Assembly (NCBI GenBank): GCA_000697355.1
Contig: JNEN01001243.1
Span: 124,001 to 188,000, forward strand
Direction of reading: 5' to 3'
From: Syncephalastrum monosporum B8922
Taxonomy: Eukaryota; Mucoromycota; Mucoromycetes; Mucorales; Syncephalastraceae
DNA: 64,000 nucleotides
Made by a program: the position numbers and the translations under genes. Numbering within the stretch: the stretch's first letter is position 1; each line of letters opens with the position of its first letter. The notes below the pieces were generated by a model, which saw only the letters and a list, made by a program, of their open reading frames with translations, was not told the origin of the DNA and searched no databases. Positions 24,577-28,319 of the stretch are shown here, one piece after another.

Positions 24577-26164
24577 AGTGATGCGATGTGTAAAGTGGTT
24601 TCGTCGTTGAGGGAAGAAACAAAAGTCAGGAAAAAGTGAAAGGAAAAGATAAACGAGGATGGAGGGTGCGTTTTCATTAAAAAAGGAAAGGGAGTGGACC
24701 AGGTCGGCTGATTGGTGCCCGACCGTTCATGCACACACACACACGCACACTCAGATTTTTTTTTACACACACGCGCACGCGTACACAAGAAAGAAAAAAA
24801 AAGCCCAGAGAGCCGCACAACTTTTTTGAGATTCCCCGCACACACACCGCACATTCGTACTTGACGGTCTGCTTGTCTTCTATATTTCGTCGGGCCTCCT
24901 GAAAGCAGAATAAGAAGAGCGCATGCATTATTGATTTTTCCCCCTTCGGCCGCAAAAATACATCCCATGTCTCTTATGTTCTCCCTCTCGCCCCTTTACA
25001 AACGCCTGGGCTGCCTGGGTGGAAAGAGAAAGCGCAAGAGACTTCGTTTTTTTTTTTTTTTCTTTGCTTGTGTCACATGCAGTATCATGACGACAGTCAA
25101 CCGCCAAATCATGTGGTCTTTCTCGGCATAAGACACCGGGTGTGCCTCGCATGACGGATCATTACTCTATTTCTTACAAACTTATCTACACTTTCTCGAT
25201 GATCGATGGTGGCACACTACACAAAGGAGTAGCTGTGCTGCGCTAAAATTGGTACTAAACTCGAATTGCTTGCTTTTCTCTCCTCCGCACACAGGCATAT
25301 ACACACTGTCAAATTACTAGCGGTAGTCTAGCACCTTACCTTTCGGCAGTGCAGACATATATGCTATGCCACAGCCACGGGTAACAACTGGAGAAAGGGT
25401 GGTCATGGGCTGAATGGCTCAGTCAAGTGTACAGCGAAAATGATGGGGCATGTGTCCATTAAGAATCCAGGTTTCGTTAACGAGTGGAAAGCGACAGGTC
25501 AACCAGTAGGGGTTGCGCGCGCGCGTGTGTGTGTGTGTGTGTGTGCTTGTCGATCTTGCCCAGCATCGCTTCCCTACCTTGTGGTACCGGCGGCCTGGTG
25601 TGGTACATAACCACGCGCACGGGTGGGCGGGCAATCACTGAAGATCGTGCTATTTTGAGATATTTATTTTGGATGCACGTCAGGGTATTTGACAGTCCAC
25701 CACAGCGATGACTTTTTCTATTCATGTCTGCTCTGTAGCATCGCTAACGCTTTGTTCCACGGTGTTGGATTGAAATAGATGGAGGGCGAATTAATTAGTA
25801 CAGGTATAGGAGGAGGATGCGACTATAATGAGAACGAGCATCATATTAAAGCAGTGAGCAGATAAAAATGCAGGGCACTGTCAGGTCCTATATTTGTACC
25901 CCCTAGAACTTCGTCTTTGCCTGTGCCAGTGAACCTCTCTTCTTAGACAGGACATGTGGCTCTTTTTCTTCTTCAGAATGAGACCCACACAAACCCATTT
26001 CTCACAGTAAGAGAAATATTACGCTACACGTGTTTCTGGCAGAGTGGAGCTGGAAAGCGCGAGAAAGATGTTCGGAGCTACTCTCTGTGTTGGGGTTCGA
26101 AAGTAACAAGGCAGCTCACACTCGCGGCACTCGGCACCTTCTTACTTCACTTTACCTTATCCCA
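24577..26164. other. divergent intergenic region (H1 / RACK1) with CA/GT microsatellites
   Basis: This 1.6-kb spacer contains a CA-rich block around 24731-24785, a T run near 25047, and a GC/GT alternating tract at 25515-25542. Both promoters should lie here. The RACK1 5' leader probably begins within the last few hundred bases; a 5' UTR intron cannot be excluded. No coding exon is recognised. Confidence 0.5.
25515..25542. repeat. (GC)n/(GT)n alternating purine-pyrimidine tract
   Basis: About 28 bases of strictly alternating purine and pyrimidine (GCGC then GTGT) lie between histone H1 and RACK1. Such tracts are Z-DNA prone in general; that is a known property of the sequence type, not shown here. 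Confidence 0.8.
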
Positions 26165-27917
26165 ATGGCTCACTTTGCTTTCCGCGGCGCCCTCAAAGGT
26201 AAGCTACACGAGGATGCATGTATGGATGGCTCGACTAACAGATGGATGGATGGATGGATGATTAGGACACAATGGATGGGGTAGATAACAGCTTTGCGCT
26301 TCGGCCAACTTTATTTTCGCTGACGCGAGTGCCCCCTCATTAGTTACTTCCATCGTCACCACGCCTGAGGCGCCCGACATGGTGGTGTCAGGTTCTCGAG
26401 GTACATCTTCCACTACCTCAAAAAGGGCCAGGGTTAACACTTTGCTCTCATAGACAAGTCCATCATTGTGTGGCATCTGAGCAGGTATGTTTGACAATAC
26501 GCGTCTGACTGAAACCCAACTCATGCTCTTTGTTTAGGTAAATACAGTGTCACATGATCTCCCAGATTTTGAGAGATGATGATGGACGCCTCTAAAGTCG
26601 AGGTGAATGCCATTTTTCTAATGAAAAATTGCTCACGATTGCCCTTTCAAAGGGATGAAATTGACTATGGCGTGCCACGCAAATCTCTGCTGGGCCACAA
26701 CCACTTCGTGCAAGACCTCGCCATCTCTTCTGATGGCCAGTACGTCCTGTCCGCCTCGTGGGACCAGAGCTTGCGTCTGTGGGATATCAGCACAGGAGAG
26801 ACGACCCGTCGCTTCATTGGCCATGCCAGCGATGTCCTGTCTGTCTCGTTCTCCCCTGATAATCGTCAGATCGTGTCTGGATCCCGCGACAAGACTATCA
26901 AGCTCTGGAACACCCTGTAAGTCTTTGGTGTTTATCTCTCTCCTCGTTTGATACTTACCCAGCTCTTTCGCTTGTTCAGGGGTGAATGCAAGTATAGCAT
27001 TACCGACAAAGGTCATCAGGACTGGGTCTCCTGCGTCCGCTTCTCGCCCAACCCAGCCATGCCTGCTATTGTGTCGGCGGGTTGGGACAAAGTCGTCAAG
27101 GTAAATATGAGGGCCACTTGTTGTGTTGGGTCATGAGAGGGTGACTGTGATGACTATTATAATATTTGCTACTACGGAGGCTTATGCCGGTGAGATCAAC
27201 ACCACCACCTTCTGAATGTCACTCTCAAGATGAAAAAGCGATTGATGGGAAAAGCAATTTTATGTATCTGATGACTGACCCGTTCTTATCATCTTAGGTA
27301 TGCATCTGTTTCCTGTGTTTCCTGTGTCTATCCCTTGCTGTGCTGGCTGCGACCATGATGACCAAACAAATATTTGCTACTATGGAAGCCCAAGAGGGGC
27401 TTGTGAAATCAACAAATACCACAAAAAACCTGACGCAGCGCGCACAGCAAAGCACTTGCTCTATTGCTATCATTTGCTGACTTTGGATTCGCTTTAGGTC
27501 TGGGACTTGACGAAGCTTGAACTGCGCAACAACTTCCTTGGTCACAATGGTTATATCAACACGATTGCCATCTCGCCGGATGGCTCGCTTTGTGCTTCGG
27601 CTGGCAAGGATGGCATTGTGCAGCTGTGGGATTTGAAGGAAGGCAAACCCTTGTACTCCCTTGATGCCGGTGAAGAGGTGCACACGTTCGCCTTCTCGCC
27701 AAGTCGTTACTGGCTTTGCGCAGGCACCAAGTCTGGCGTTAAGGTGTGGGATCTGGAGAAGCAGGAGCTCCTGGACGACCTGCGACCGACTGCCGACGCA
27801 GGTGCCCAGGTGAGCACTCCATGCTTGTCGCTCGCCTTCTCTTCGGATGGCGCTACTCTCTTCAGTGGCCACACCGACAACCTGATCCGTGTCTGGACCG
27901 TCATCAGCACCTTATAA
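26165..27917 (+). CDS. ASC1: RACK1/Asc1/Cpc2, 40S-associated seven-WD40 scaffold
   Basis: Seven exons (26165-26198, 26266-26280, 26344-26400, 26454-26484, 26653-26916, 26980-27100, 27498-27917) join in frame to 313 residues, the normal RACK1 length. The start is [21 protein letters not shown] repeats follow: [37 protein letters not shown] with [29 protein letters not shown] with [21 protein letters not shown] with [30 protein letters not shown]; and [17 protein letters not shown] near the end. RACK1 binds the 40S head and links translation to signalling. Exon 2 is a 15-nt microexon. Introns 26485-26652 and 27101-27497 each contain an internal acceptor abutting a donor, and the latter carries two box C/D snoRNAs. 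Confidence 0.97.
26534..26543 (+). promoter_or_regulatory. candidate zero-length exon / recursive splice site in a RACK1 intron
   Basis: Inside the intron 26485-26652, the acceptor-like TTTGTTTAG ends at 26537 and the donor-like GTAAAT begins at 26538. A CTGACTGA branch-like sequence lies upstream at about 26502. Translating past the junction gives an immediate stop in the required phase, so no exon starts here. The intron can be read as 53 nt plus 115 nt. Confidence 0.5.
27137..27226 (+). ncRNA. intronic box C/D snoRNA, U24 (snR24)-like, copy 1
   Basis: Box C GTGATGA is at 27147-27153 and box D CTGA at 27212-27215. A C'-like GTGAGAT lies at about 27190. A nine-pair terminal stem (one G-U wobble) joins 27137-27145 to 27218-27226. 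The guide AATATTTGCTACTAC (27161-27175) is the hallmark of U24/snR24 and, from memory, is exactly complementary to a conserved 25S/28S segment methylated by U24. The D' box is degenerate and the second guide before box D is only weakly U24-like. The host, a RACK1/Asc1 intron, is also the host of snR24 in Saccharomyces cerevisiae. Confidence 0.85.
27294..27303 (+). promoter_or_regulatory. candidate zero-length exon / recursive splice site between two snoRNA-bearing half-introns
   Basis: A good acceptor (ATCATCTTAG ending at 27297), preceded by the branch-like GACTGACCC, is followed directly by a good donor, GTATGC, at 27298. It splits the intron 27101-27497 into halves of 197 and 200 nt, each with its own donor, branch site, acceptor and U24-like snoRNA. 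After removal of the first half the exon end AAG would abut GTATGC, recreating a usable donor. Confidence 0.6.
27346..27439 (+). ncRNA. intronic box C/D snoRNA, U24 (snR24)-like, copy 2
   Basis: Box C ATGATGA is at 27355-27361 and box D CTGA at 27430-27433, with a C'-like TGTGAAAT near 27402-27409. A perfect six-pair terminal stem joins 27346-27351 to 27434-27439. The guide AATATTTGCTACTA (27369-27382) matches copy 1, but the rest of the RNA, including the sequence before box D, has diverged. It sits in the second half of the same RACK1 intron, followed by its own CTGAC branch site and TTTAG acceptor. Confidence 0.8.
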
Positions 27918-28319
27918 AAAGTCCTCTTCGCATAAACAAAAACTAGCATAGCTTATCCCACCTTTCTGTCCTGATTAAAGTTTCGCTTTGAATTAATGCA
28001 TGATGGGAGAAGAAAAATGTAAAACCTTGCTCGATCTGGTTATCGTCCCTTTTCACTTTTTCTTTTGTATTTATTCACTCTTTTGTAAGTATTCACCATG
28101 TTCCCGGTACGTGCAGGCACTCGCTTGTACATGATTTGCAGGTATGGGGAGGTTCAGCGTATCGATGATATTACCTTTCGCCATACTAAATCAGAGTAAA
28201 ATGTCGTGAAGCTTTGTGTCTTTAGGCGGTTATATGGTACAACATTTGCATCTCATATATTCGCATGACAATTGATGTGGCTATAGTATGGGTAAATAGA
28301 TGAAAAGCTCAGGCCATGC
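27918..28319 (+). other. intergenic region RACK1 / sugar transporter
   Basis: This 400-bp spacer between co-oriented genes contains the RACK1 3' UTR. It may also hide a missing first exon of the sugar transporter; I could not identify one with a convincing first helix. Confidence 0.45.

Follow-up and report, generated by a model that had tools for sequence, protein, structure and literature searches.

Intron 6 of the RACK1 gene in the window (the whole 64,000-nt stretch of DNA analysed here) is best read as two complete tandem introns joined at a zero-length exon, and the two halves probably leave as separate lariats, at least in some transcripts. The intron (27101-27497) is 397 nt long, and the midpoint CTTAG/GTATGC at 27297/27298 divides it into 197 and 200 nt. 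The tandem layout described in the sequence-only reading was recovered base for base: each half has its own donor, box C/D snoRNA, branch site and TAG acceptor. No exon lies between the halves, AG directly abutting GT, as that reading had also stated. The acceptors of 6a and 6b alike end in TTAG. The branch ACTGACC lies 20 nt ahead of the midpoint junction, and the median distance in the reference introns is 20 as well. The exon before intron 6 ends in AAG, and joining 27100 to 27298 gives AAG/GTATGC; the regeneration of a donor by removal of the first half, proposed earlier, can be read directly in the DNA. Feature coordinates are listed in Table 1.

Table 1. Features of the RACK1 gene, its introns 4 and 6 and the two box C/D snoRNA copies (positions in the window).
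Feature	Position	Strand	Remarks
RACK1 gene, start codon to stop	26165..27917	+	exons set by homology
RACK1 exons 1-4	26165-26198, 26266-26280, 26344-26400, 26454-26484	+	
RACK1 exons 5-7	26653-26916, 26980-27100, 27498-27917	+	
Intron 4, second abutting AG/GT at 26537/26538 (53 + 115 nt)	26485..26652	+	TTTAG/GTAAAT
Half intron 6a, 197 nt	27101..27297	+	donor GTAAAT, branch ACTGACC (A 27278), acceptor CTTAG
Half intron 6b, 200 nt	27298..27497	+	donor GTATGC, branch GCTGACT (A 27480), acceptor TTTAG
Zero-length exon, acceptor AG touching donor GT	27297..27298	+	CTTAG/GTATGC; 3/2000 shuffles
Box C/D snoRNA copy 1 with terminal stem	27137..27226	+	9-bp stem; SNORD24 22.7 bits
Copy 1 parts	C box 27147-27153; antisense 27161-27174; D' CGGA 27175-27178; C'-like from 27190; D box 27212-27215	+	
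Box C/D snoRNA copy 2 with terminal stem	27346..27439	+	6-bp stem; SNORD24 27.0 bits
Copy 2 parts	C box 27355-27361; antisense 27369-27382; D' TGGA 27383-27386; C'-like from 27403; D box 27430-27433	+	

With the six introns taken out, the seven exons of the host gene form a single open CDS of 942 nt, encoding 313 aa plus the stop. Among the best 120 of 5246 matches of the protein search, the top one is a protein of Syncephalastrum racemosum (87% identity), and the next Mucorales proteins share at most 75% identity, so that the source was taken to be a mould near Syncephalastrum. Intron 6 sits after codon 174. If 6a were retained, the first stop in the RACK1 frame would be codon 186; it would be codon 235 with 6b retained and codon 186 with both. 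The exon bounds were set by hand from homology and not by the gene finder, which missed the 15-nt exon and placed the end of intron 5 at 26997. This micro-exon (26266-26280) encodes most of GHNGW. It is absent from the annotated S. racemosum protein P0001, whose annotation may have overlooked it.

Two more RACK1 copies were found in the genome assembly (27,528,251 bases, 198 contigs), on contigs C177 (locus L009) and C132 (locus L010), with 72% identity over the matched part. Both are stop-free from residue 35 or 47 through the end, unlike the window gene with its six introns and snoRNAs. Nor did their fetched loci yield the guide word, so these two copies provide no intron for comparison.

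Each half intron contains a C box (RTGATGA) and a D box (CTGA) joined by a terminal stem, of 9 bp in copy 1 and 6 bp in copy 2. Stems as good occurred in 110 of 20000 shuffles for copy 1 and in 625 of 20000 for copy 2. Box C/D snoRNAs carry an antisense to rRNA, some 10 nt long or more, immediately ahead of a D or D' box; both copies have one (14-15 nt), ahead of the degenerate D' boxes CGGA (copy 1) and TGGA (copy 2). Alignment marks the two copies clearly as paralogous: the local alignment of 6a with 6b scores 55 (best of 1000 shuffles, 39), and 50 of 69 aligned positions in the snoRNA cores are identical, gaps omitted. The guide is identical in both copies. The terminal stems consist of different letters, yet both pair, and both copies look maintained and intact. 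Compared with shuffles, copy 2 folds better (z -2.27) and copy 1 does not (z -0.91).

At the gathering score, Rfam gave no match in the window. A relaxed Rfam search of 25800-28100 gave six matches, with SNORD24 (RF00069) on top for both copies, at 27.0 bits for copy 2 and 22.7 bits for copy 1, neither of which reaches the gathering score of 41 bits. SNORD33 and snR61 matches overlap the snoRNA copies, and two minus-strand matches were taken as chance. A tRNA scan found none. The complementarity to rRNA (14-15 nt) and the terminal stems are stronger support for the snoRNAs than the Rfam score.

The genome's own LSU rRNA holds GTAGTAGCAAATATT, which pairs with copy 1 over 15 nt and with copy 2 over 14 nt plus one G-U pair. 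Both snoRNAs carry the same 14-nt LSU antisense, in agreement with the earlier statement that the intron holds two copies of one guide RNA. Five bases counted by hand from the D' box lead to the A that follows the U24 cytosine at a distance of twelve bases. In Neurospora crassa, Cm1418 is the CD50 (U24) site and Am1430 the CD51 (U24b) site (PMC2780460). The snoRNA table of the same source gives CD51 as U24b and names U76 in its last column, which is taken here as the human one (PMC2780460). Since the window snoRNAs point to the N. crassa A1430/CD51 site, they are assigned to the U24b type, and both are predicted to guide 2'-O-methylation of the LSU A equivalent to yeast A1449 (N. crassa A1430). 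As judged by the hand count of the predicted target base, they share with N. crassa CD51, S. pombe U24b and U76 a D' guide directed to the A 12 nt past the U24 cytosine (PMC2780460). CD51 is listed as a single copy in N. crassa (PMC2780460), whereas the window holds two copies in abutting introns. The sequence-only reading called these snoRNAs U24-like. SNORD24 is indeed their best Rfam match, but the guide is that of U24b (CD51/U76) and not that of the two-guide U24. As for a second guide at the D box, neither copy had a convincing match in the two LSU stretches compared (L006 and L008, ~2.8 and ~3.0 kb). An exact search of the 27.5-Mb genome for the C box followed by the guide, which would miss diverged snoRNA copies, gave two matches, both being the window copies, and none in the reversed control. 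The D-box form of this exact motif gave no match in the genome.

The strength of the midpoint sites was evaluated against other introns of the genome. Our own gene finder predicted 87 genes and 608 introns in 264 kb (the window plus 200 kb of contig C105). Splice-site scores were trained on 159 confident predicted introns, each no longer than 130 nt, the gene models being our own, computational predictions only. RACK1 introns 4 and 6 fall outside this set because of the length limit. Relative to the 159 introns, the midpoint sites rank at the 91st (acceptor with branch) and 58th (donor) percentiles, and the outer sites of intron 6 at the 69th (6a donor) and the 83rd (6b acceptor with branch). 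Seven AG/GT pairs in 528 kb (both strands, the midpoint itself counted) reach the midpoint joint score, giving an expectation of 0.0053 per 397 nt and 0.0016 per 120 nt, with thresholds that are post hoc since they were set at the observed scores. An abutting AG/GT as good was held by 3 of 2000 dinucleotide shuffles of intron 6. With an acceptor score of at least 7 and a donor score of at least 4, there are 15 AG/GT sites in total. Seven of them are at predicted intron donors, five outside predicted genes, one in a predicted exon and two within predicted introns; the last two are those of RACK1 introns 4 and 6. These results support the conclusion that the midpoint sites score as true splice sites do and are rare by chance, and the use of the midpoint in splicing is likely on this reading of the sequence.

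From these features we infer that the halves are removed separately in some of the transcripts at least, and that both snoRNAs are released and direct methylation. Removal of 6a would recreate the donor AAG/GTATGC for 6b, and removal of 6b first would leave the 6a acceptor intact; therefore, either order would work. The junction forces no order, and 6a first, 6b first or all 397 nt together are compatible with it. The lariat of each half would be debranched and then trimmed to one snoRNA. Two-step removal would thus place one snoRNA in each intron and give both the usual distance to branch point and acceptor. Counted in this way, donor and C box are 46 and 57 nt apart in 6a and 6b (36 and 48 nt when measured to the stem). 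The D box precedes the branch A by 63 and 47 nt and the acceptor by 82 and 64 nt. Most intronic snoRNAs of N. crassa have 41-60 nt between them and the donor, and how far they are from the acceptor is said to matter for processing (PMC2780460). Were the 397 nt a single intron, copy 1 would stand 282 nt from the sole acceptor.

This distance is one of three points against the alternative that intron 6 is a single 397-nt intron, always removed in one step, with the midpoint AG/GT a product of chance or a relic and with the snoRNAs separated by an endonuclease or only one of them released. In its favour, both outer sites of the intron score well (donor 69th percentile, acceptor 83rd), and the gene finder, which is unable to model a zero-length exon, called one intron; the mRNA produced by one-step removal of the 397 nt is the same as that of two-step removal. 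Against it also stand the improbability of the midpoint by chance (3 of 2000 shuffles) and the lack of a strong hairpin in the stretch between the copies. This stretch has less structure than its shuffles, at least as stable a fold being reached by 193 of 200, and an RNase III-type hairpin was not seen in it. A hairpin-directed endonuclease cut is therefore not indicated. We consider it unlikely that removal is always in one step.

RACK1 intron 4 contains the second abutting AG/GT of the gene. Its midpoint acceptor ranks at the 74th percentile and its donor at the 69th (of 159 introns), and none of 2000 dinucleotide shuffles of intron 4 held an abutting AG/GT as good. The relaxed Rfam search (25800-28100) gave no snoRNA match in intron 4, so such junctions need not stem from snoRNA duplication. 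The 115-nt half of intron 4 folds better than shuffles (z -2.58).

The sequence-only reading explained intron 6 by a precise tandem duplication of a snoRNA-bearing intron. The part concerning the snoRNAs stands, with cores that are paralogous (50/69), but the flanks are not clearly alike and doubling of the whole intron is not demonstrable from them. Outside the cores, similarity as high was reached by 315 of 5000 shuffles for the 5' flank and 878 of 5000 for the 3' flank, and by 268 and 117 of 1000 shuffles in another test. Tentatively, the whole intron may have been doubled in place, which would double the guide output; the zero-length exon would then be kept by selection as a cut made by splicing, and the RACK1 gene of this lineage would be prone to exonless introns, as intron 4 would indicate.

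It is quite possible, though short of probable, that the snoRNA alone was duplicated inside one intron and that a branch site, an acceptor and a donor arose later between the copies and split the intron. Such a history would resemble the stwintronisation model, but with complete sites. The flanks beyond the cores, which are not clearly similar, agree with it, and the AG/GT of intron 4, with no recognised snoRNA, shows that there are other routes to such junctions. It demands, however, that three good signals arise together at the right spacing. The flank test is also a weak argument in its favour, because old flanks would lose their similarity in any case, and the 5' flanks of 6a and 6b share a 13-nt stretch with 11 matches (as good in 315 of 5000 shuffles).

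A third route appears improbable, in which a copy of a snoRNA-bearing intron came in from another place and settled beside the original intron, as in the excision-and-insertion model of Luo et al. Whole snoRNA introns of fungi have been described as changing place (PMC3596301). A source copy is lacking here, however, the exact genome motif search having returned the window pair only, and landing exactly at an intron end is an extra demand. Relatives of the locus were also sought in other collections. The RACK1 pattern gave nine matches in viral contigs, none from a relative, and 34 in a collection of genome contigs, one of which is a 30% identical WD40 stretch of a bacterial MAG and none of which comes from a relative. 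The guide motif was matched by 39 stretches of viral contigs, many near-identical to each other; by our test the terminal stem is absent in 32 and present in 7, and all 39 were taken as viral coding sequence.

Exonless snoRNA introns are already known from non-coding fungal clusters, and what is new here is the coding host together with two paralogous snoRNAs of the same guide. For fungal snoRNA clusters, at least 61 exon losses that led to juxtaposed introns without exons have been described (Luo et al. 2013, PMC3596301). The ESTs and RT-PCR reported there fit either 5'-to-3' stepwise splicing or the use of alternative acceptors from the first donor (PMC3596301). Recursive splicing with an exon size of zero is described for relatives of Candida and cited for Debaryomyces too (Donovan et al. 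2016, PMC5033589). In fungal clusters I-III, as in the window, snoRNA introns abut with an exon size of zero (PMC3596301, PMC5033589), which here takes the form of CTTAG/GTATGC with one snoRNA per half. Clusters I-III have non-coding hosts and different snoRNAs per cluster, and exon loss by deletion is proposed for them (PMC3596301, PMC5033589), whereas the window has a protein-coding host and two paralogous same-guide snoRNAs. Exon loss was rejected as the origin of the RACK1 junction: the joined protein is complete, with no internal gap at the intron 6 site relative to the related RACK1 proteins compared here, which makes such a loss unlikely.

In S. cerevisiae, the intron of ASC1, the RACK1 gene, hosts snR24, so that both there and in the window a U24-family snoRNA lies in a RACK1 intron (PMC4848094). 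ASC1 has one snoRNA in one intron, whereas the window has two single-site U24b-type snoRNAs in abutting introns. By eye, K179 of Asc1 corresponds to K174 of the window RACK1. The snR24 intron follows codon 179 of ASC1, and the position of the RACK1 snoRNA intron is therefore probably ancient. The literature searched contains no listing of abutting twin snoRNA introns in RACK1.

Stwintrons resemble intron 6 in that one intervening sequence is made of two U2 introns removed in turn (PMC7138796). In a stwintron, one of the outer intron's splice signals is interrupted by the internal intron (PMC7138796, PMC8469720), whereas both introns here carry complete signals. No external donor, branch or acceptor is interrupted in intron 6. 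Long animal introns have recursive splice sites (zero-nucleotide exons), at which an acceptor abuts a donor and the donor is regenerated. The same regeneration at an internal acceptor is read here as AAG/GTATGC. Compared with these animal sites, the window introns are short and the junction parts two guide RNAs.

This locus places exonless snoRNA introns in a protein-coding host, whose reading frame reveals mis-splicing, and it shows that a snoRNA copy can be gained without a new exon. If the midpoint is used, splicing itself could part the two RACK1 snoRNA copies. Intron 6 offers a small natural test case for splicing as the cutting step that leaves each fungal intron with a single snoRNA: altering the midpoint would tell two-step from one-step removal with the protein untouched.

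The other U24 guide is borne by a locus on contig C78, with 11 nt complementary to the LSU and, by eye, a short TTTGCTAC word ahead of a CTGA. This U24-like locus scores 30 bits for SNORD24, below the gathering score of 41, and adjoins an Afu_514 match. The U24-like and Afu_514-like snoRNAs (locus L002, 1501-1566 and 1722-1822, minus strand), both below gathering scores, appear by eye to occupy successive introns, parted by a 9-nt exon, of a host that seems to be non-coding. LSU rRNA stretches are present on three contigs (L006, L007 and L008), and that of L007 is one base off from L006 and L008 just past the guide target (CAAGCGAG vs CAAGTGAG).
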